Source: Acidobacteriota bacterium
GTDB taxonomy: Bacteria > Acidobacteriota > Vicinamibacteria > Vicinamibacterales > UBA8438
DNA length: 64,000 bases
Assembly: GCA_009838525.1 (NCBI GenBank)
Contig: VXRJ01000038.1
Coordinates: 74,654 to 138,653, forward strand
Reading direction: 5' to 3'
The notes under the pieces are model-generated. The model was not told the DNA's origin. It saw only the letters and a list, made by a program, of their open reading frames with translations, and did no database searches. This document shows, in pieces, positions 1,952 to 46,265 of this stretch (positions are counted from its first letter, which is position 1; each line of letters begins with the position of its first letter). The position numbers and the translations under genes are program-made.

Positions 1952-4900
1952 CTAGAAGTACATCTGGACGCCCCACGTCAACTGGCGGCCATCGATGATG
2001 CTGATGATGCGGTTGAAGTCGGGATTCTTGATGCCTCCGCCGCCCCATCCCCGGTTGCGGTCCGTGACCCGGGCCCGGTTGAAGAGGTTGCTGGCGTCCA
2101 TGTAGACGCGCGTCCGAATATCGCCGGTGGTGAAGGTCTTCGAGAACCGGATGAGCAATTCCGTCGTGTAGTCCTCGAAAACGGTCCCCGGCTCGATCAA
2201 CTCCACACCCAGGGTGGGATTCGCGTCGTCGACGTCACCGACAATGAGACCGGGGAAGTCAGTCGTGTTGATGGTGTAGCTGGCGCTGATGGGCCTCCCC
2301 GGGAATATCTGGAGGAGTCCCGAGACCATGAAGTCGCCCGGCAGCGGCAGGGCTCCCGACAACTTGCCCATCGGCCGGTACGGCATCCGCGTCTCACAGA
2401 ATCGCATCCGGTTGGGATTCTCGAGTATCCCGTGCGCGCACCGGTGGTCTGTGGTCGTGCCCGCCGTGATGCTGCCGGTCATGAAGCCGCCGCGGGGAAG
2501 CTCCCCGTCGACAATCACCTCGAAACCGTTCCACGTTCGCCAGCGATGCGGATCGTTGGTCAGGCGGTCGTTGCCGGTCTGGATGTCGATGCCGGGGCGG
2601 GTGACATAGATCGGAATCCGGACGCCCTGGGCGTTCGGCGGCAGATCGGGGTCGGTCGGCCCGGTCCACGTTCCCGCCATCATCCAGTCGGCCACCGACG
2701 TGTTCAGGTTGTCCTCCCAATTGAAGTTGGCGTAGCTCCGGCGGTGGAACATCGCGCTCAGCGCCCAGCCGGCGCCCAGTTGGCGCTCGAGGCCGGCGGA
2801 GTACTCCCAGTTGGTGCCGCGCCGCAGCGTGTCGTCGTACTGGGTCTGGATGATCGACGTTCCATAGTTAGGGTTGTTCGAGGGGCCGACCTCGTTGACC
2901 TGCGGCGTTCCGTCAGGATTCAGCGCCGTGCCGTCGCCGTTGAGGTCCGTCCAGGGCCGCCAGTCCAGCATGTCGTAGGGGTAGATCGGATTGAACCCCT
3001 GGGTCAGGCCGGTCCCCTCGTTCGCCACGTAGCGCCCCGCAGAGGCCTTCACCGCCGTCGAGCCGTCACCGAACAGGTCGAACGCGAAGCCGAACCGCCC
3101 GCTGTAGTTCCGCCAGTTCGGGATGTTCTCCACGACGGGATCCGGCGTCGTGAGCTCCGGCGCGAAAAAGCCCGCTGCCCGGGTCCCTCCCGGCACCGAG
3201 TTCTGGAACCAGTCGAAGCGGAAGCCCGCGTTCACGGTCAGCCGCTCCATCGTCCAGGCATCCTGCACGTATACCCCGCAGTCGCAGTCCTGAATGATCC
3301 CCTGGCGCTCCGCCCCGTTGCCGCCCACGAGGATTCCGATGGGCCACCCGTTGAAGAAATAGCCCGCGAAGATGTCGCCCGGCGGCGAGTACGCAAGGGC
3401 CGTCCGGTTGTTCGCGAAGTTGATGCCCGCCTTGAAGTTATGCGAACCGGTCACGTACGAGATGGACGCGTTGATGCGCCGGTGGAAGTCGTGGTTGTGG
3501 TGGTTCTGGAACGAGCTGTTGTACTCGGTGTTCTGTGCGACATCGATTTTCGCCATGCGAGGCTCGCCATGATCCACCGGAGTGGTGTTGACGTCGGCCT
3601 GCATGAACGAACCATGCACCTCCACGAGCAGCCGGTTGGTTATCGGCGCCGTCCAGCGGCCGGTGGCCATTACTGTCGGATGCCCGTTGAAGGTGTACCA
3701 GGCCTCCGGACCGATCCGCCGCCCGCCTGTGTTGAACGCGGCGACCGACGACTTCGGCTCCTGGAAGTAGCTCCACGTCAGCTTGTTGCGCTGGGTGAGC
3801 TGGTGCGTTATCCGCACGTTGTAGTTGCCGTTGGCGCTCCCGGACCACGCCCGCAACTGCTCCGGCGAGCAGCTTCCGTCGCCGCACATCTCCCGGATGC
3901 TGTCCGGCGTAGACGGCTGGGCCGGATCCCAGAACTGGTCGAGGACGAAGCTCTTGTTCCGGTTTTCGATCATCGAGGCGAAGAACCAGAGCTTGTCCCG
4001 GATGATGGGACCGCCGGCCGCGGGGTTGAAGCTGTAGCGGTAGTCAACCGGCGCGAACTCGAAGCCGAGGTCCTTCAGCGCCTGGTTCTGGTTGTCCCAT
4101 TCGAATCTCCCCGTCGTGCCCTGCAGGAAGAGGTTGTAGGCGTACTCGTTGCCGCCCGCCTTCGGAACGATGTTCGTCCGCACGCCGCTCTGGGCATATT
4201 CCGCAGACTGCGAAGAAGTGTCGAAGACGATCTCCGTAACCATCGCCTCGTTCGTGACCGTTCCGACGCCGGCCGACCACTCGTTCCGCCCCTGGAGCTG
4301 TCCTCCGGTCTTGATGCCGTCGACGGCGGGCTGGCCGTCCAGCGGGTCGGATCCGTGCAGGCTCGGCAGGTTGCTGCGGTTGTTGTCGCCCTCGCCAAGA
4401 ACCGTTCCCGGCACGTAGGCGGCGGCGCTCCGGATGCCCGCCGCTCCCGGCAGCACGTTCACGCGCTCGGACGGCATCACCGATTGCTGCCGCGTGGTCC
4501 TCACGTCGACGAGCGGCGCCGTCCCGGCCACGGTCACGGTCTCTTCAACGCCGCCGACGTTCATCGAGGCGTCGACCTCGGCCACGAACGCGCCCGACAG
4601 GACAACGCCCTCGCGCACTATGGTGGAGAAGCCGGGAAGGGTGAAGGTCACCGAATAGGTGCCCGACGGCAGATTGATGAACTGGTAGTTCCCGGCGCCG
4701 TCCGAGAACACCGTGCGTACCTGCTCGATCAGCGCCGGGCTGCGCGCCTCGACGGTCACGCCGGGCAGGATGCCCCCGGTGTCGTCCTGGACGTTGCCGG
4801 CGATGCCCGCCTCGTCCTGCGCCAGGGCGACGGACGGGGCAAGCGCAAGGCTGACCAGGCAGACAAGAGTCAATGAAAGTAGCGATGCGCGGCTCTGCAT
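1952..4900 (-). CDS. TonB-dependent receptor, Oar-like, with carboxypeptidase-regulatory plug extension
   Basis: A 982-aa outer-membrane receptor starting at the ATG at 4900, preceded by GGGGGAG. The frame can extend 14 codons upstream, but the signal peptide begins MQSRASLLSLTLVCLVSLAL. Residues about 28-115 are the carboxypeptidase-regulatory-like domain (GIAGNVQDDTGGILPGVTVE, YQFINLPSGTYSVTFTLPGF). The plug follows (VEETVTVAGTAPLVDVRTTR), then a long beta-barrel ending in WGVQMYF with the terminal aromatic residue typical of BAM substrates. It would import a TonB-dependent substrate that cannot be named; acidobacterial paralogues are often tied to oligosaccharide or peptide uptake. It heads the operon running down to the left edge. 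Confidence 0.93.
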   Translation of the reverse strand: MQSRASLLSLTLVCLVSLALAPSVALAQDEAGIAGNVQDDTGGILPGVTVEARSPALIEQVRTVFSDGAGNYQFINLPSGTYSVTFTLPGFSTIVREGVVLSGAFVAEVDASMNVGGVEETVTVAGTAPLVDVRTTRQQSVMPSERVNVLPGAAGIRSAAAYVPGTVLGEGDNNRSNLPSLHGSDPLDGQPAVDGIKTGGQLQGRNEWSAGVGTVTNEAMVTEIVFDTSSQSAEYAQSGVRTNIVPKAGGNEYAYNLFLQGTTGRFEWDNQNQALKDLGFEFAPVDYRYSFNPAAGGPIIRDKLWFFASMIENRNKSFVLDQFWDPAQPSTPDSIREMCGDGSCSPEQLRAWSGSANGNYNVRITHQLTQRNKLTWSYFQEPKSSVAAFNTGGRRIGPEAWYTFNGHPTVMATGRWTAPITNRLLVEVHGSFMQADVNTTPVDHGEPRMAKIDVAQNTEYNSSFQNHHNHDFHRRINASISYVTGSHNFKAGINFANNRTALAYSPPGDIFAGYFFNGWPIGILVGGNGAERQGIIQDCDCGVYVQDAWTMERLTVNAGFRFDWFQNSVPGGTRAAGFFAPELTTPDPVVENIPNWRNYSGRFGFAFDLFGDGSTAVKASAGRYVANEGTGLTQGFNPIYPYDMLDWRPWTDLNGDGTALNPDGTPQVNEVGPSNNPNYGTSIIQTQYDDTLRRGTNWEYSAGLERQLGAGWALSAMFHRRSYANFNWEDNLNTSVADWMMAGTWTGPTDPDLPPNAQGVRIPIYVTRPGIDIQTGNDRLTNDPHRWRTWNGFEVIVDGELPRGGFMTGSITAGTTTDHRCAHGILENPNRMRFCETRMPYRPMGKLSGALPLPGDFMVSGLLQIFPGRPISASYTINTTDFPGLIVGDVDDANPTLGVELIEPGTVFEDYTTELLIRFSKTFTTGDIRTRVYMDASNLFNRARVTDRNRGWGGGGIKNPDFNRIISIIDGRQLTWGVQMYF

Positions 4901-5120
4901 GCTGTGCTCCCCCTCTAGTCGAAACTGAGCCGATGTAAGCAACTGCTCACTGCGACACTACGCCGACTATTCACGGGAGTCAAGCCCGTTGGAACCCGCC
5001 TTTACCACGCCGGGCCGGGCCGTGACGCTCACCCCGCGCACCTGGAGGCATCGCCGCGTCGCTGAGGCTGCTGGGTTGGTATCTCTTGGCACGAGCTTCG
5101 TGTTACACTGTTTTCGTGTC

Positions 5121-5369
5121 ATGAAGAACGTCACGGTGACCCTGCCGGAAGATGTCGCGCTCTGGCTCAGGATCCAGGCGGCCAAGCATGACCGCAGTGT
5201 CTCCAGCTGGCTGGCCGACCTGCTTGAAGGGATGAGGCGTCAGGAAGACGAGTACGACGTGGCGATGGAGCGCTTCCTGACGAGAGCGAGACAGCCGCGC
5301 ACGCTCAAGCGACCCGGCGACCGCTACCCGACACGGGACGAACTCCATGACCGCACCGGTCTTCGTTGA
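5121..5369 (+). CDS. vapB: Antitoxin, ribbon-helix-helix-like (VapB type)
   Basis: An 82-aa protein starting at the ATG at 5121. The N-terminus (KNVTVTLPEDVALWLRIQAA) has the beta-strand then helix pattern of ribbon-helix-helix antitoxins, followed by a charged tail expected to wrap the toxin. It overlaps the PIN toxin gene by 23 nt, the usual arrangement for translational coupling. No clear Shine-Dalgarno is visible; a TACACT hexamer lies 11 nt upstream of the ATG, suggesting a very short leader. It should neutralise the adjacent toxin and repress its own operon. Confidence 0.8.
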   Translation: MKNVTVTLPEDVALWLRIQAAKHDRSVSSWLADLLEGMRRQEDEYDVAMERFLTRARQPRTLKRPGDRYPTRDELHDRTGLR

Positions 5370-5811
5370 CACCAACGTCTTCGTCTACCAGCACGACGAC
5401 TCGGAGCCGGACAAGAAGCCCCGCGCCGATGACTGGATCGCGCTTCTCGTGCGCCACCGTGCCGGTCGGCTGAGCTTCCAGGTGTTGCAGGAGCTCTATG
5501 TAACGCTCACCCGCAAGCTGAAACCGGGCACACCCGCGGCGGAAGCTCAACTGATTGTCCGCGACCTCTACCTGTGGGAACCGGTCACCATCGATCGCGC
5601 CATCCTCGAGCGGGGCTGGCACTTGCAGGAGCGACACGCGCTGTCATGGTGGGACGCACTCATCGTGGCTGCCGCGCAATGGTCGGAGTGCCGTGTGCTT
5701 CTCAGCGAGGACATGCAGCACGGCCAGGTCTTCGGCTCCCTCCAGGTGATCGATCCGTTTGAGTCGCCGGACCGATCGCCGGCGGACATTCTCACCTTGC
5801 CGGATCGCTGA
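5347..5811 (+). CDS. vapC: PIN-domain ribonuclease toxin (VapC type)
   Basis: A 154-aa PIN-domain protein. The acidic active site is visible: D8 in VFVDTNVFVY, E49 in VLQELYV, D103 in SWWDALIVAAA, and E121/D122 in LLSEDMQHG. VapC toxins are magnesium-dependent endoribonucleases that cut tRNA or rRNA and are held inactive by their VapB partner. All catalytic acids are present, so it is probably functional. Its start lies inside the antitoxin gene. The next gene, on the other strand, ends 49 nt away. Confidence 0.88.
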   Translation: MTAPVFVDTNVFVYQHDDSEPDKKPRADDWIALLVRHRAGRLSFQVLQELYVTLTRKLKPGTPAAEAQLIVRDLYLWEPVTIDRAILERGWHLQERHALSWWDALIVAAAQWSECRVLLSEDMQHGQVFGSLQVIDPFESPDRSPADILTLPDR

Positions 5812-5859
5812 CCACAGATACGGCTCCCAGCGTCCGGCCGGTTTACCGCACGGCCCGGG

Positions 5860-7686
5860 CTACCAGGCCGGCAGTTCCGGCGCCGCGATCCCGGTCGGGC
5901 TGAACTCGAGGGGTTCGCCGCTCTCGGAGGCGAGCACGCTCACGAGGAACGGATAGATGGCTTCCATCCGGAATTCCGTCGTCGCGGCCGCATCCCACGG
6001 CGCGTCCGCCCCTGGCGTAAAGCCGGCCCACGCCAGCGGTTCGGGAAGCGCGGCAACGTCGGTGACGACGTGCAGGGCGACGTCATTGTCGCCCCTGCCT
6101 CCGGCGATGAACGGCGGTTGGTGATCGCCAAGAATCAGCGCGATGAACCCCGGTTCGATCCGGTTCCGGAACGTGTCGAGCAGCAGTTCCCATTCGTAGG
6201 CCACGGTTACGAAGAAGTCGCGCTTCTGACCCTGCGGAACGGTCAGCGCCAGTTCGACGTAGTCCGGCCGGGTCTCGAGAAAGGCCGGTTGCGGCTTTGC
6301 CAGGTCTGCGACGTCCTCCGTAATGCGCGGTGGCGCCTCCCAGGCATAGTGGGTGGCGGTGGCGACGAAGTGAAAGAGCCGGGGACGCGGGTGCCGGCTC
6401 CAGTAGTTGTTGAATGCGTAATCGAGCGCCCACTGATCCGGCACGTGGCCGAATCCGTAGTCGAAAGCGTCGTAAGAGAAATCTTCCCGGATGATCACGT
6501 CGTCGTAGCCGTACAAGTCCTCGTTCCATGTCGCGCCCGGCTGAACGGACAGTGTGTAGTAGCCGTGCCGCTCCAGATAGGCGATCAGGTGGGGGTACCG
6601 GTGCGCGATGCGCTTCCAGGCCCAGTACGTCGAGTGGTTCTCGATGCGGATCCCGCTCAGCGCCGACGCCGTGCTCATCCACGATCCGCCGCCATAGACC
6701 GGCGACGTAACGAAGCGCGTGAATGTGGGCAGTTCAAGTTCGTCCAGCCCGTCCTGCACGCGACGCATCAGGCCCTGTCTCGCGGAGCGGTAGTCGTCGT
6801 CCGCCCACAGCGCCGCGCCGTACGACTCGATCGAGAACAGATAGACGTCGGGTTGTCGCACGGGAGCGGTGTCGTCGAGGCGGGCCGCGTCCGGCACGAC
6901 GCTGCCGCTCAGCGCGTCAACGGTTTCCAGTACCGCCTGTGACCGCTGCAGGTTGAAAACTGCGTGTTTCGCCTGAAGCTGGACGAGCGGATCGTCCCGC
7001 TCCACCCCGAACCACGTGAGCGACAGCAGGCAGTACGCGTTGACGAGCACCCAGCCCGCCGCCACGTGCCGTGGTGGAAGGGTAGCTCCCCAGTGCCACG
7101 CCGCCTGGAGATAGCGCGCGACGAGCAGGCCCAGTCCGGTTGCCGCGGCCAGCAGGACGGCGGCATACAGGAAGTCCGTCAACCCCCAGGCGTCGCGCAC
7201 GACAATCCAGGCGCTTTCGAGCATGAGGACATCGTCGAGCAACGTGCCGGGTCGGTCGAACAGGTAGTGGACAAAGCCGCTGTACGCCATGAACGCCAGG
7301 AGCCCCGCGTACGCGATTCCCGCGAGCGGTACCACCGCCCTGCGCCAGTTGCTCGCGAACCGGCTCACGAGAACGAGCGACGACACGATGAATACCCAGT
7401 CCGCGCTCACTCGGAAGATGTCCTTGTTGTGGCGTCGGACGAAGAGCTGCATGACGTACTCGTAGGTGCTGCGCCCGATGCCGGGCCATCCCCAGTCGTA
7501 GTCGCCCCGAGGATGTCCCAGGGGGAAAAAGGGCCAGAAGTTGTTTTCCTGGGAAAGGAGGAGATAGATCGGGACGAACAGCAGCAGATTGAACGCTGCG
7601 AACCCCGCCGCAAGGTAAGCGCCGGTAGGGAGTGACCGCGGGTCCAGCCACGCCGGAACCCGGAGCGTCAGGCGGACTTCAGGAAT
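5860..7686 (-). CDS. Membrane-anchored sulfatase / LTA-synthase-like hydrolase
   Basis: An alkaline-phosphatase-superfamily protein with four or five N-terminal transmembrane segments (e.g. YLAAGFAAFNLLLFVPIYLLL, FLYAAVLLAAATGLGLLVARYL) and an extracytoplasmic catalytic domain. VYLFSIESYGAALW is the first metal motif, GGGSWMSTASALSG carries the likely nucleophile Ser, and LILGDHQPP is the C-terminal Asp-His metal motif. The layout resembles phosphoglycerol or phosphoethanolamine transferases acting on envelope polymers; the substrate is unknown. The start is unclear: the open frame continues to 7932, but that would overlap the divergent gene. No ATG or GTG lies in the plausible range, only ATT at 7686 (behind GGGAGG) or CTG at 7671. 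Function is well supported, the 5' end is not. Confidence 0.78.
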   Translation of the reverse strand: MPEVRLTLRVPAWLDPRSLPTGAYLAAGFAAFNLLLFVPIYLLLSQENNFWPFFPLGHPRGDYDWGWPGIGRSTYEYVMQLFVRRHNKDIFRVSADWVFIVSSLVLVSRFASNWRRAVVPLAGIAYAGLLAFMAYSGFVHYLFDRPGTLLDDVLMLESAWIVVRDAWGLTDFLYAAVLLAAATGLGLLVARYLQAAWHWGATLPPRHVAAGWVLVNAYCLLSLTWFGVERDDPLVQLQAKHAVFNLQRSQAVLETVDALSGSVVPDAARLDDTAPVRQPDVYLFSIESYGAALWADDDYRSARQGLMRRVQDGLDELELPTFTRFVTSPVYGGGSWMSTASALSGIRIENHSTYWAWKRIAHRYPHLIAYLERHGYYTLSVQPGATWNEDLYGYDDVIIREDFSYDAFDYGFGHVPDQWALDYAFNNYWSRHPRPRLFHFVATATHYAWEAPPRITEDVADLAKPQPAFLETRPDYVELALTVPQGQKRDFFVTVAYEWELLLDTFRNRIEPGFIALILGDHQPPFIAGGRGDNDVALHVVTDVAALPEPLAWAGFTPGADAPWDAAATTEFRMEAIYPFLVSVLASESGEPLEFSPTGIAAPELPAW

Positions 7687-40060: not shown

Positions 40061-40079
40061 GTTGTTCCTGTGTTGTTCC
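40061..40079 (+). promoter_or_regulatory. Left operator-like arm, two GTTGTTCC repeats
   Basis: GTTGTTCC occurs at 40061-40068 and again at 40072-40079, 11 bp apart, one helical turn. The 19-bp arm is the inverse of 40123-40141 with one mismatch. It lies just upstream of the -35 element. Confidence 0.75.
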
Positions 40080-40087
40080 GGAAATGC

Positions 40088-40117
40088 TTGACAAGCCCCG
40101 ACGGCACCGCGTATCCT
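40088..40117 (+). promoter_or_regulatory. Promoter of the GTPase-helicase operon
   Basis: TTGACA at 40088-40093, 18-bp spacer, TATCCT at 40112-40117. This is the closest match to a sigma-70 consensus seen in the window. It lies exactly between the two operator-like arms, and transcription would start about 28 nt before the GTPase ATG, inside the right arm. Confidence 0.75.
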
Positions 40118-40122
40118 GCTTG

Positions 40123-40141
40123 GGAACAACGCAGGAACAAC
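40123..40141 (-). promoter_or_regulatory. Right operator-like arm, two GGAACAAC repeats
   Basis: GGAACAAC at 40123-40130 and 40134-40141, again 11 bp apart, overlapping the expected transcription start and abutting the GGAGG ribosome-binding site (40142-40146). A protein bound here would block initiation. Confidence 0.75.
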
Positions 40142-40151
40142 GGAGGTGGGT

Positions 40152-42425
40152 ATGGTAGATCGTAAGTACTCGGCGAGTCTCAGCCAGACCCAAGGCCGGT
40201 CGGGATTCTCGGTTATCTTCAGGCACCCGGCAAGGCGGGATGATGCGACCGGCAAGCTAGGCGTTCGTGTGCGGCGCGGCCTTGGTACACGGGACGAGGC
40301 GGAGGCGATGCGGCTGCGGGACGAACTGAATGGCCTTCTGGGTGACACAAAGTACCACGATCCGGGCGCTCGAAATGAGGCCGAGCGGCGATTTGATCCC
40401 CGCGTCGTCGACATCTTCTTCGACAAGATGGTGCCCGAGGAGACAGACTTCGCGGCGCTACGCGAGGACGCCATCGCGTTGCCCGAGTCGGAACCGGACG
40501 GCTATCGGCGGGTGCTCTTTCTTGGGACGACGGGGGCTGGCAAGACGACGCTTGTGCGCCAACTGATCGGGACGGATCCACTGACGGAGCGCTTTCCCTC
40601 GACCTCGACGGCCAAGACGACCATTCACGACACCGAGATCATTCTCGCCCAAGGTGGCTGGCGAGCGGTCGTGACTTTCGTCCCGAGCGATGAAGTGCGC
40701 GAGTACCTGAACGAGTGCATCTCTGCAGCGGTGCTGGCCGCCGCCAAGGGTGCGGAGGCCGAGGTGCTCCGGCGCCTCCTGAACCATGTCAATCAACGTT
40801 TTCGCTTCAGCTACGTGCTTGGCAATGGCCCGACCGTCATGCCGAGCAGTTCCGACTTTGACGATGACGAGGAGGAAGCGGACGAGTTGGATCTCCTCTC
40901 CGGAGAGGAGCGCGATGTGATCGACATGGCGAGTACGGTGAAGCTGCTTGAACAGACGGTTGCAACGCTGCGCGAGCTCGCTCGCCGTCTCGGTGACAAG
41001 CTGCACACCGAACTCGATGTTCGAGGGGATGACGACGAGCGTGTGGCCGACGAGCTCTTTGAGGAGGAACTGGACAATCTGGTGCGGGACGAGGAGGAGT
41101 TCCACCGAGTAGCCGATGCACTAATGGAGGAGATCGAAAAGCGCTTCGACCTGCTGCCACTAGGCGAAGTCCGGAAGACGCGGCAGGGCTGGCCTCTGAC
41201 TTGGAGCGGAGAGTGGCCGGTTGAGGAGCGCGCCGCGTTTCTTCGGGCGATTTCTCGGTTTTCCAGCAACTACGCCCCCCTCTTCGGGCGGCTACTGACA
41301 CCCCTCGTGAACGGCGTGCGCGTCGCCGGTCCCTTCACACCGACCTGGAACGGAAGTGAAGTTCCCAAGCTCGTGCTTCTCGACGGCGAGGGGCTCGGCC
41401 ACACGCCCAAGTCGTCATCAGCGGTCTCGACCGCAGTGAGTCGCCGCATCGAGGCCGCAGATGCGGTACTTCTTGTGGACAGCGCCACCCAGCCGATGCA
41501 AGCGGCACCGCTCGCCGCCATGCGGGAGGTCGTGGCGACCGGGAACTCTCGCAAGCTAGTCATTGCATTTACGCACTTCGACGAGGTCAAGGGTGACAAC
41601 CTGCCGAACGCGTCTGCGAAGGCGCAGCACGTTCTAGCATCTGCGGAGAACGTGCTGGCGGCCTTCGGAGAGGATCTCGGACCGTACGCCGAGCGGGCAT
41701 TGCGCCAGCGACTGGATAGCGCTCGCTTCTTCTTGGAGAAAATCCACGAACCGCTGAGCGAGGGCACCGCATCGGGAAAGCGCACGGTCTTGCAGATCCG
41801 TAAGCTCCTTACTGCAATCGATGCAGTGATCGAGCGGCCGGAACCTCCAGAGGCGCACCCGGTCTACGACCGGATGAACTTGGTGCTCGCGATTCGCGCC
41901 GCGGCCGACGCCTTCCATGAGGCGTGGCGACCGCGCCTCGGCCTTGAGTTCAAGCCGGGTTTCGCGAAAGAGCACTGGACGCGGGTGAGGGCCCTGAGCC
42001 GACGTCTCGCAGAGGGATGGGACGACGAGTACGACACGTTGCGTCCGATCGCTGACCTGCGCAAGGAGCTGGTGGAGCGCATCTACGTGTTCGTGCAGAA
42101 ACCCCTTGGATGGGAGGAGTTCCAACCGGCCGACGACCAGAAACAGGCCTGCTTCGACGCTCTGGCCGACAACCTCGGTCCGCGGCTGCTACAGGTGTGC
42201 ACTCGCAGGATGTGGCACGAACGTGCGGAGCAGTGGCGGGACGCATACGTCAAGCACGGAACCGGTTCGACGTTCGTACGTGCCCGGATCATCGGTGATG
42301 AGATTTACGAGCCGGCGGCGCCGATTCCTGACGTCACGCCCTCTCCCGAGCGAAACAAGTTCATGCACGAGATCATCACCGAGGTCGAGAAGGCAGCCGA
42401 CGAGACGGGCTCCGTACTCAAATAG
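40152..42425 (+). CDS. P-loop GTPase-like protein with integrase-arm-like N-terminus
   Basis: A 757-aa protein. ATG 40152 is used because GGAGG ends 5 nt upstream. Residues about 4-66 (KYSASLSQTQGRSGFSVIFR, VRRGLGTRDEAEAMRLRDEL) resemble the small arm DNA-binding domain of tyrosine recombinases. Walker A is GTTGAGKTT (125-133), a switch-like STSTAKTT is at 150-157, a DxxG is D411-G414 (LLDGEGLGHT), and an altered G4 motif THFD is at 474-477 where NKxD is expected. Between them are long helices with acidic runs (DFDDDEEEADE near 235-245). No membrane segment is seen. It could be a dynamin-like or signalling GTPase that senses DNA or controls the helicase encoded 18 nt downstream. Not matched to a named family. 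Confidence 0.8.
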   Translation: MVDRKYSASLSQTQGRSGFSVIFRHPARRDDATGKLGVRVRRGLGTRDEAEAMRLRDELNGLLGDTKYHDPGARNEAERRFDPRVVDIFFDKMVPEETDFAALREDAIALPESEPDGYRRVLFLGTTGAGKTTLVRQLIGTDPLTERFPSTSTAKTTIHDTEIILAQGGWRAVVTFVPSDEVREYLNECISAAVLAAAKGAEAEVLRRLLNHVNQRFRFSYVLGNGPTVMPSSSDFDDDEEEADELDLLSGEERDVIDMASTVKLLEQTVATLRELARRLGDKLHTELDVRGDDDERVADELFEEELDNLVRDEEEFHRVADALMEEIEKRFDLLPLGEVRKTRQGWPLTWSGEWPVEERAAFLRAISRFSSNYAPLFGRLLTPLVNGVRVAGPFTPTWNGSEVPKLVLLDGEGLGHTPKSSSAVSTAVSRRIEAADAVLLVDSATQPMQAAPLAAMREVVATGNSRKLVIAFTHFDEVKGDNLPNASAKAQHVLASAENVLAAFGEDLGPYAERALRQRLDSARFFLEKIHEPLSEGTASGKRTVLQIRKLLTAIDAVIERPEPPEAHPVYDRMNLVLAIRAAADAFHEAWRPRLGLEFKPGFAKEHWTRVRALSRRLAEGWDDEYDTLRPIADLRKELVERIYVFVQKPLGWEEFQPADDQKQACFDALADNLGPRLLQVCTRRMWHERAEQWRDAYVKHGTGSTFVRARIIGDEIYEPAAPIPDVTPSPERNKFMHEIITEVEKAADETGSVLK

Positions 42426-42443: not shown

Positions 42444-45400
42444 ATGAATGCCGTTTCTGCTGACGCCCGCCGCTTGCCGCTCCATCACGTCACCGTCCGT
42501 GTCCCGTGGCACGACGGAGGTTGGACGGGAAGCGTTTGTGCCCGCCCCCTCGACAACACGAGCTGCCTCATTCTGCCCCGCATCGGCGAGGGGCGGCGCG
42601 ACGAAGTGGAAGCACGTTGCGCCGGCCAAAGGCTTGATGAGCTTGGCCCCGCCGATCTCCCGCCCTGTGTGAGTGAACGCGTTTCGATCATGGCGCCGTT
42701 CGCGCTCACACGGACAATCACGCACCCGTACACGGAGTTATTCCCGGAGACCCACGGCCACTTCGCACCCACGCGCTTCGTACAACCTGCGTACTCCGCT
42801 GCCTGCGTGCCCTACCGCTGGATGCTGCGCGAGAAGGTCGAGGGGAACGCGAAGGATGGCGAGATCGGGCTCGCCGAGCGTCTGAAGATTGGCTGGGTAC
42901 CAGACCGCGAGCCCGACATCCGCAATCACCAGGGCAAGCAGATCGAGACGGATTGGGTTCAGGAGCGCGAGAACCAACTTGCTCTGCTCGACACCTTCTT
43001 CAGTGGGCTCCGGCCGAATGAGTCCCTCTGCTTCTTCTACGCCAAGCGCACCCCGCTCTCCGAGCAGTCGCGGCGCGTGATCGTCGGCGTGGGCCGCGTG
43101 CTTTCCGTGGGCGAAGCCACCGAGTATGCGCACAGGGGCCAGAACCCGTCGCTTCGTTGCGTGCTCTGGGAACGCAACGTAGGCCATTCGGTCCGGCCTG
43201 GATTCGCGGACGGCTTCCTCTTTCCCTACCGGGAGGCACTGGCGCTCGCAGAGAGCGAGGGCGTCGCCCCAGAGGAGTTCGTGGCCTTCGCTCCCGACGA
43301 GCACTTCGACGCCTACTCCTATGGCTCGGAGCTGTTGAGCCACGATGGCGCTGTGGCCTCCCTTGTGGCCTGTGCCGCGGCGCTGCACCGGATCCGCGGT
43401 CGTATTGAGGGACCGTGGGAACAGGCGCTCGCCTGGATCGACACGCAGCTCAACCGCCTGTGGAAGGCGCGGGGCGCGTTCCCCGGCCTCGGCTCGGCGC
43501 TCTCCGCGTTCGGCTACGAGTGGGGTTTCCAGCACGGAAGCCTGCTCGCCTACGAGATCGAACTGCTGCGCGAGCGCGAAGGCGGTGGCGATCCGTGGTC
43601 GCTCGTGGACACCGTGATGGACAATCCCGCCAAGCTCGGCGGGCCCTTGGCGAAGCTCCTCACGGACGGACTGCGCAAGGGTTGGAAGCGCCTCGCTGAC
43701 GATCGTCGAGCCCTGCTCTGGCTCCTCGGCCGCTGTGCTGTCTCGGAGGATCAGGCGTTCCGTATGTACGACACCACGGCGCGGATGGAGGCAAGTATCG
43801 AAGCGACCGACGCGGAGCTGCTGCGCAATCCGTACCTGCTTTTCGAGCGCGACCGCCGCGCCGTCGCCCCGATCGCCTTCGGCGCGGTGGACCGGGGCCT
43901 GTTCCCGGACGAGGCAGTGCGGGAAGAGTTCCCCGTGCCGGAACCGAGCCTTATTGAGGATCCGGCGGACCCTCGGCGCGTGCGCGCATTGGTCGTGGAT
44001 CTGCTCGAGGAGGCGGCGAATGAAGGGCACACGTTGCTTCCCCGGAGCTGGGTCATCCGCAGGGCGCGGGAGCGCTCGCTCCAGCCCCCGTGCCCGCTCG
44101 GCGAGAATGTGCTCGATGCCTGCCAGGAGAGCTTCACGCCGGTCGTCGCGGGGGCGGTGACCCGTGCGGGCGAGCCTGCCTACCAAGTGGACCGGCTCAG
44201 CGAATGCCGCAGGATCATCCGCCGCGAGGTACTCGGCCGAAAGAAGGGCAGGCCGCACGTGGCCGAGTTCGACTGGCGCGGCCGCGTGGACGCGGGAATC
44301 GACGAGGCGCTGCCTCCCGATCCGGAAGAGCGCGAGTTGGAGGAGCGGGCGCGGCGTGAGAAGGCGGCGGCGCTTGAGCAGCTCTTTCGGTCGCGGCTCT
44401 CCGTGCTGATCGGCCCCGCCGGCACGGGCAAGACGACCCTGTTGCGGATGCTGTGCGCGCTGCCCGCTCTCGCCGAGAAAGGGCTGCTTCTCCTCGCACC
44501 CACGGGCAAGGCCCGTGTGCGCCTGGAGGAGCAAACCAAGATGCGTGGTGCCGGGCAGACGCTCGCGCAGTTCCTCATCCGGCAGCAGCGCTACGATGGG
44601 GCGACCGGCGCCTACTTTCCCAAACCCAGGGCGCCTCGCTGTGGCGACTACCGGACGGTGATCGTGGACGAGTGCTCGATGCTGACCGACGAGCAACTCG
44701 CGGCGCTGATCGACTCGCTCAGCAACGTCGAGCGGCTCGTGCTCGTCGGGGACCCGCGCCAGCTCCCGCCGATAGGGGCCGGTCGTCCGTTCGTGGACAT
44801 CGTTCGGGAGCTCGAACCCGAGAACGTCGAAACGCTCCCCTTGCGTTGCAGGCCGGGCTATGCCGAGCTCACGATCCCGCGACGCCAGCAGGGGGAGGCC
44901 CGGGCCGACCTGCTTCTGGCATCGCACTTCAGCGGCCGGCCGCTCGACCCCGGAGCGGACGCCCTGCTGGACGAGACTGAGGAAGTGAAGGACGGACGCC
45001 TTCGTCGCATCCGGTGGGACCACCCGCAGGAGCTTCAGGAGAAGCTCGTCGCGGAACTCGTCGAGGCGCTCGAACTCGCCGGACCCGACGACGAACTGGG
45101 CTTCGAGGAATCCCTGGGCGGCGCGCGGCACGGGGACATCCCATGGGCCTTCTTCTGGAACCGTTTCGGTGACAAGCCGGGGGCAGCCAAGCGGGCAGAA
45201 ATGTGGCAGATGCTCTCGCCCGTGCGCGCCGGGCTCGTGGGCGTGGACGCGCTGAACCGCATGGTCCAGGCGCGGTTCCGGGCGAAGGTGCGCGAGCTTG
45301 CCGAGGCGGAGGGCTGGAGCCGCAAGGTGCCGCGTCCCATCGGCCGGCAGACGCTCCTGTACGGCGACAAGGTCATCAACGTCATCAACCAACGCCGACG

Positions 45401-46265
45401 CGACGTCTGGCCGAAGCCCGACGGCGAGGCCTACCTCGCCAACGGCGACATCGGCATCGTCGTCGGACAGTACAAGGGCAAGAAGAGCAAGTTCAAGGGC
45501 ATGCCCTGGAAGCTCGAGGTCGAGTTCGCGGGGCAACTCGGCCCCAAGTACGGGTTCTACCCAGGCGAGTTCGGCGACGAAGGCCGAAATCCACTCGAGC
45601 TGGCCTACTGCCTCACTGTGCACAAGACCCAAGGCAGCGAGTTCGGCGTCACCTTGGTCGTGCTCACCAACCCTTGCTGGCTGCTATCCCGGGAGCTCTT
45701 GTACACGGCGCTGACCCGCCATCAGGACCGGCTGGTCATCCTGCACCAGGGCCCGCTTGTCGAGTATCGCCACTATGCAGGCGACGAGCACTCGGAGATC
45801 GCACGGCGCATGACGAACCTTTTTGTGGATCCATTGCCGTGCGAAGTAACCGTTAACACCCAGCAACGCTTCCTCGAAGAGGGGCTCATTCATCGAACCG
45901 AGCGCGGTGACCTCGTACGTTCGAAGTCGGAGGTGGTAATCGCCGACAAGCTTTACGCCCGCGGGATCGACTACGCCTACGAGCAGCCTCTCGTACTGCC
46001 CAATGGTCGCACCCGCTATCCTGATTTCACGATCGCGGATCACGCACGGGGGGTGACCTTCTACTGGGAGCATCTCGGCATGCTCCACGATCCGACGTAC
46101 AGAACCCGATGGGAAAGGAAGCGCGCGGAGTACGTGGAGTGCGGGATCGGGCCTCATGAGGACGGCGGAGGCTTGGAAGGAACACTGATCGAGACTCGCG
46201 ACGAGCCGGACGGGGGGCTGGATGCAGCCGCGTTAGCATCGTTGATCGATGAAGTCCTGGGTTGA
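42444..46265 (+). CDS. RecD-like SF1 helicase with C-terminal PD-(D/E)XK-like domain
   Basis: A 1273-aa protein. Residues 1-600 form a large unrecognised region (e.g. HHVTVRVPWHDGGWTGSVCA, ESLCFFYAKRTPLSE). The helicase core follows: Walker A GPAGTGKTT (657-665), Walker B VDECS (741-745), motif III GDPRQLPP (769-776), motif V VHKTQGSE (1059-1066) and motif VI YTALTRHQDRL (about 1092-1102). The last ~150 residues look like a PD-(D/E)XK nuclease: SKSE with E1163, YPDF with D1194, and YWEHLG with E1209, the usual Lys being replaced. It would unwind and perhaps cut DNA. The large N-terminal region separates it from RecD2. It is probably the effector of the operon and co-transcribed with the GTPase. 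Confidence 0.85.
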   Translation: MNAVSADARRLPLHHVTVRVPWHDGGWTGSVCARPLDNTSCLILPRIGEGRRDEVEARCAGQRLDELGPADLPPCVSERVSIMAPFALTRTITHPYTELFPETHGHFAPTRFVQPAYSAACVPYRWMLREKVEGNAKDGEIGLAERLKIGWVPDREPDIRNHQGKQIETDWVQERENQLALLDTFFSGLRPNESLCFFYAKRTPLSEQSRRVIVGVGRVLSVGEATEYAHRGQNPSLRCVLWERNVGHSVRPGFADGFLFPYREALALAESEGVAPEEFVAFAPDEHFDAYSYGSELLSHDGAVASLVACAAALHRIRGRIEGPWEQALAWIDTQLNRLWKARGAFPGLGSALSAFGYEWGFQHGSLLAYEIELLREREGGGDPWSLVDTVMDNPAKLGGPLAKLLTDGLRKGWKRLADDRRALLWLLGRCAVSEDQAFRMYDTTARMEASIEATDAELLRNPYLLFERDRRAVAPIAFGAVDRGLFPDEAVREEFPVPEPSLIEDPADPRRVRALVVDLLEEAANEGHTLLPRSWVIRRARERSLQPPCPLGENVLDACQESFTPVVAGAVTRAGEPAYQVDRLSECRRIIRREVLGRKKGRPHVAEFDWRGRVDAGIDEALPPDPEERELEERARREKAAALEQLFRSRLSVLIGPAGTGKTTLLRMLCALPALAEKGLLLLAPTGKARVRLEEQTKMRGAGQTLAQFLIRQQRYDGATGAYFPKPRAPRCGDYRTVIVDECSMLTDEQLAALIDSLSNVERLVLVGDPRQLPPIGAGRPFVDIVRELEPENVETLPLRCRPGYAELTIPRRQQGEARADLLLASHFSGRPLDPGADALLDETEEVKDGRLRRIRWDHPQELQEKLVAELVEALELAGPDDELGFEESLGGARHGDIPWAFFWNRFGDKPGAAKRAEMWQMLSPVRAGLVGVDALNRMVQARFRAKVRELAEAEGWSRKVPRPIGRQTLLYGDKVINVINQRRRDVWPKPDGEAYLANGDIGIVVGQYKGKKSKFKGMPWKLEVEFAGQLGPKYGFYPGEFGDEGRNPLELAYCLTVHKTQGSEFGVTLVVLTNPCWLLSRELLYTALTRHQDRLVILHQGPLVEYRHYAGDEHSEIARRMTNLFVDPLPCEVTVNTQQRFLEEGLIHRTERGDLVRSKSEVVIADKLYARGIDYAYEQPLVLPNGRTRYPDFTIADHARGVTFYWEHLGMLHDPTYRTRWERKRAEYVECGIGPHEDGGGLEGTLIETRDEPDGGLDAAALASLIDEVLG

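Follow-up and report, generated by a model that had tools for sequence, protein, structure and literature searches.

A promoter enclosed by two facing pairs of the octamer GTTGTTCC precedes a gene for a dynamin-like GTPase in the 64,000-nucleotide stretch of DNA analyzed here (the window), and these octamers probably form an operator for autoregulation, with the N-terminal domain of the GTPase itself as the reader, as judged from comparative sequence data. The upstream pair consists of an outer and an inner GTTGTTCC copy on the forward strand (positions 40061 to 40068 and 40072 to 40079), followed after 8 nt by the −35 element TTGACA (40088 to 40093, forward) and, across an 18-bp spacer, by the −10 element TATCCT (40112 to 40117, forward). 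The downstream pair faces the first, with its inner (40123 to 40130) and outer (40134 to 40141) octamers on the reverse strand, reading GGAACAAC on the forward strand; the inner copy covers the predicted transcription start. All four octamers have counterparts in homologues, and a ribosome-binding site, GGAGG (40142 to 40146, forward), was recognized by inspection. Within each pair the octamer period is 11 bp, and the two resulting 19-bp arms match each other in inverse orientation at all but one position, separated by a 43-bp interior that holds TTGACA-18-TATCCT. An earlier note on this DNA had described the repeats, their one-turn spacing, the facing arms, and the enclosed promoter, all of which lie exactly where it placed them. 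The arrangement is not due to chance. GTTGTTCC occurs seven times in the window against 1.17 expected, with four of the seven copies inside these 81 bp, and a search of the whole 4.29-Mb genome for the paired site returned no second occurrence.

A search with the downstream protein yielded a homologue set of 46 loci, and upstream regions were compared where sequence was available. The earlier note had proposed looking for the same repeats upstream of homologous operons, and they were found there: a pair of octamers with at most 2 mismatches in 16 positions precedes each of the non-redundant homologous genes (45/45), whereas none of 450 control blocks taken from these loci contains one, 3 mismatches being the best value there. 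That the same sites are kept before homologous genes also bears out the reading of a cooperative type of operator. The layout consists of an octamer pair, TTGAC, the −10 element, and then the facing octamer pair, and this architecture is retained with the GTPase gene at 38 to 81% protein identity and across many phyla. In 44 of 47 homologous promoters, the upstream pair is followed after 7 to 9 nt by TTGAC, the −35 element, and the −10 element usually lies 4 to 9 nt ahead of the downstream pair. Position-by-position comparison revealed GTTGTTC as near-invariant in all four half-sites, with the flanking bases far less so. The starts of the inner octamers are 47 to 56 bp apart (mode, 52) in the homologous promoters. 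Looping across the promoter, as the earlier note had suggested, may take place, but the geometry of the promoter is enough to account for this distance. Arm spacing differs among loci, and the arms of Bacillus, L017, L014, and L232 are incomplete. Three Bacillus loci (L034, L035, and L046) retain only upstream copies, with no downstream pair; TGTCATAA follows their upstream octamers where TTGACA is usual, and L046 carries three upstream copies. Paired octamers repeat at 11 bp in most relatives of at least 55% identity, whereas a 10-bp period is seen in the remaining relatives (L025 departs from this rule). Nearly half of the GTPase family has the 10-bp spacing. The length of the N-terminal hairpin was considered as the cause of the 10- versus 11-bp spacing and was discarded, since the spacing type switches just one or two times along the tree; L265, with a short hairpin yet 11-bp spacing, further contradicts the idea.

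The octamers are also restricted to this gene. In 32 other whole genomes carrying it, paired octamers in intergenic DNA are confined to promoters of the GTPase family, and the few remaining paired hits lie in coding sequence at near the chance rate; other genes of the same genomes were thus rejected as regulon members because the checked sites fall in coding sequence. The only other site outside coding sequence lies ahead of an additional copy of the GTPase gene. This copy (L232, 708 to 2996; G169 contig 1 near 3158000) belongs to the Vicinamibacterales genome of L026 and has the downstream octamer pair only. When viral contigs were scanned for octamer pairs that face each other, 28 stretches emerged, 15 of them ahead of this GTPase gene and the rest mainly from one enterobacterial contig family.

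The GTPase gene (40152 to 42425, forward; ATG start; 757 aa) was defined from the open reading frame, a structural model, and Foldseek searches. The product is dynamin-like, as judged by its G1 (GTTGAGKT, residues 125 to 132; consensus GxxxxGKS/T) and G3 (DGEG, residues 411 to 414; consensus DxxG) motifs, both conserved among homologues, and by its modeled fold. An AlphaFold2 model built from 47 homologues (pLDDT 85) has SynDLP, IniA, a bacterial dynamin pair, Mx, and BDLP as its top Foldseek matches; that to SynDLP has an E value of 3e-7 and a probability of 1.00, but a low whole-chain TM score of 0.26. The match to Pfam Dynamin_N fell under the cut-off of that family. Residues 6 to 64 (40167 to 40343, forward), the proposed reader of the octamers, form an N-terminal domain with a putative, remote likeness to the N-terminus of integrases. 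In the AlphaFold2 model it folds as three successive strands and a helix, which is the arrangement of integrase arm-binding and AP2 domains. Matches to DUF6538, which we take to be an integrase N-terminal domain, were obtained in 10 of 32 members (best E value, 4e-4), and hhalign aligned 60 columns of the domain with DUF6538 at a probability of 41%. PDB searches with the domain alone gave no confident match, VIA-align placed unrelated folds first and a plant AP2 domain at Z 3.9, and PF20172 was not found in near relatives. Collectively, the model and these profiles suggest that the domain is remotely like the N-termini of tyrosine integrases. A literature search for DUF6538, and for the PDC-S68 helicase discussed below, returned no matches.

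The identity of the reader can be approached through what accompanies the octamers. No neighboring gene is conserved beside the GTPase gene across homologous loci, which leaves the GTPase itself or a host factor as the reader. Homologues from Bradyrhizobium, Caballeronia, and Azospirillum, at only 38 to 41% identity, carry octamers as well as the domain, the operator of Azospirillum preceding an extra first gene. Four Rhodococcus plasmid GTPases (670 to 683 aa; about 45% identity outside the N-terminal domain) have neither this domain nor the octamers, and the same is true of three more homologues from two genomes of actinobacterial classes; the seven domain-less loci are L240, L241, L242, L247, L266, L267, and L270. 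Octamers thus accompany 45 of 45 genes with the domain and 0 of 7 without it (Fisher P = 7e-9, but relatedness reduces the contrast to one or two events); a one-clade test gave P = 0.18. In a tree of the remaining protein, the Rhodococcus homologues are sister to L025 and L265, both with domain and operator (support 98/96), and this nested position indicates that domain and operator were lost together. Persistence of the GTPase body in Rhodococcus without the DNA-binding part indicates that its work is separable from regulation. The diverged domains of Rhizobium L246 and viral L260 are accompanied by operators of the same layout, with an outer half-site like GATGTTCC and inner half-sites of the GGTG/AGTG type; these variants may reflect a specificity switch together with the N-terminal domain. 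Within the reach of sequence data, the plasmid homologues decide this choice in favor of the GTPase. The proposal that its N-terminus is a candidate autoregulator is strengthened accordingly by three observations, namely that the sites follow the gene, that no other neighbor is conserved, and that loss of the domain accompanies loss of the sites.

In the mechanism that we favor, the integrase-like domain would bind the four octamers before its own gene. The upstream pair abuts the −35 element and the downstream pair lies over the transcription start, so that joint occupancy would exclude RNA polymerase, which makes negative autoregulation the likeliest sign. The GTPase would thereby keep expression low, both of itself and of cargo transcribed with it (here the PDC-S68 helicase), until released by nucleotide state, oligomerization, or an infection signal. 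Dynamin relatives oligomerize, and their assembly is nucleotide dependent, which makes cooperative filling of the four sites and release by GTP state an attractive possibility. The three Bacillus homologues devoid of the downstream pair imply that repression through this pair would not be general. They also favor the opposite sign, in which GTPase bound at the upstream pair would recruit RNA polymerase and the downstream pair would limit activation; the upstream pair is in an activator-like place, and it is the only one in these Bacillus homologues, once with three copies. We regard positive autoregulation as unlikely, given that the promoters have a good −35 and an acceptable −10 element, that the second pair covers the transcription start in most loci, and that the sole pair in the paralogue L232 is the downstream one.

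It is improbable that the octamers serve as a DNA dock, on which the GTPase would park or assemble at its own gene for defense or DNA sensing and touch transcription only incidentally. The oligomerization of dynamin relatives, the defense-gene neighborhoods, and the similar octamer clusters beside the integrase gene of enterobacterial prophages all fit such a role, but the strict fit around the −35 and −10 elements in nearly all homologues points to the promoter as the target. The prophage contigs carry several GTTGTTCC/GGAACAAC copies each (L104, at 1473 to 1556, and L051, L063, L107, L111, L116, L117, L138, L166, and L181), and those of L104 and L166 encode a tyrosine integrase with an Arm-DNA-bind_3-type domain. 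These clusters look like arm-type sites of attP, and the sharing of the octamer with them may be a coincidence. We did not retain them as proof of the specificity of the domain, since they represent one related family and one or two families are expected by chance by our estimate; profile comparison of the GTPase N-terminal domain with the enterobacterial integrase arm domain returned nothing. Further GTTGTTCC clusters occur just downstream of VapE/primase-like genes in the viral contigs L145 (545 to 625) and L174 (10306 to 10384), where they are possibly replication iterons or chance occurrences.

Binding of the sites by a host regulator such as LexA is more doubtful still. Each pair with 11-bp spacing contains GTTCN7GTTC, which resembles the alphaproteobacterial LexA box, and the neighboring helicase would suit an SOS gene. 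Nonetheless, no such site lies upstream of the genome's own lexA, the spacing is 10 bp in nearly half of the family, and the whole octamer tracks the gene through lineages, being absent in Rhodococcus, where the GTPase has no N-terminal domain; LexA boxes differ among the lineages that carry the octamers. Finally, the promoter lies between arms that form inverted repeats, which had led to the suggestion of an invertible, phase-variable promoter flanked by recombination sites, but we consider this extremely unlikely: in nearly all homologues TTGAC points toward the gene from an equivalent position, and it was never seen reversed, the interior (43 bp here, 39 to 48 bp among homologues) is short for inversion, the arms are variable and, in Bacillus, L017, L014, and L232, incomplete, no recombinase is conserved nearby, and the integrase-like domain has no catalytic part.

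Returning to autoregulation by the GTPase, its closest functional analogue among known systems would be RptR, a repressor of restriction-modification defense islands encoded at the head of the defense operon (PMC12255303). RptR represses its own promoter via short repeated sites, with regulator and sites conserved together; it is a small dimer of alpha-helical fold, and its site is a 6-bp palindrome (PMC12255303). Likewise, the repeated sites described here overlap the promoter of the putative regulator's own gene, and sites and putative DNA-binding domain are inherited and lost together; unlike RptR, the putative reader is a β-sheet domain that forms part of a 757-aa dynamin-like GTPase, and the octamers lack palindromic symmetry. 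The arm-type sites of tyrosine integrases such as those of lambda and Tn916 are, like the octamers within each pair here, short direct repeats spaced by roughly one turn of the helix. The GTPase N-terminal domain shares three strands and a helix with their arm-binding domains, but the protein has no recombinase catalytic domain, the sites flank a promoter, and sequence similarity is remote. The bacterial dynamin-like proteins SynDLP, IniA, BDLP, and LeoA have in common with it the GTPase domain and long helices, although the LeoA profile hit is weak; the GTPase differs from them in its DNA-binding-like domain and in a G4 motif, THFD. To our knowledge, a DNA-binding-like domain is unreported in SynDLP, IniA, BDLP, and LeoA.

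The GTPase gene is rare, being present in 3 of 396 genomes of the phylum, and it crosses phyla; many records are metagenome bins, and it is also found in isolates of Solimonas, Mizugakiibacter, and Bacillus and on plasmids. The operator lies in defense islands, and many neighbors of the GTPase gene are restriction or DISARM-like genes. PADLOC matches were obtained in 8 of 10 downstream neighbors, which were picked by size, so that this share is not a rate; among these ten neighbors are restriction enzymes of types I and IIG, along with DrmD, Orf5, and HKD-Snf2 helicases. In the window, an SF1 helicase gene, the PADLOC candidate PDC-S68 (42444 to 46265, forward), starts 18 bp downstream of the GTPase gene. 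The helicase was rejected as an obligatory partner, since it is found beside the GTPase only in the window and in L026 and since stand-alone S68 helicases occur without octamers in L206 and L207; it is probably co-transcribed cargo rather than a conserved partner. In L206, the helicase gene (3589 to 7404) follows a probable VapBC-like pair (2930 to 3588). More tentatively, this family might represent a new class of switch, in which a dynamin-family GTPase with a captured integrase-type domain would assemble on its promoter or leave it in response to GTP state or a phage signal and so control a changing anti-phage cargo in mobile defense islands.

How anti-phage islands are switched on is little understood, and the octamer-flanked promoter offers a compact case that is the same across distant bacteria and comes with a predicted reader. 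If autoregulation holds, a dynamin-like GTPase, from a family known for membrane work, would also regulate by binding DNA, and this GTPase family and the neighboring defense genes could be located in raw sequence through the octamer signature.
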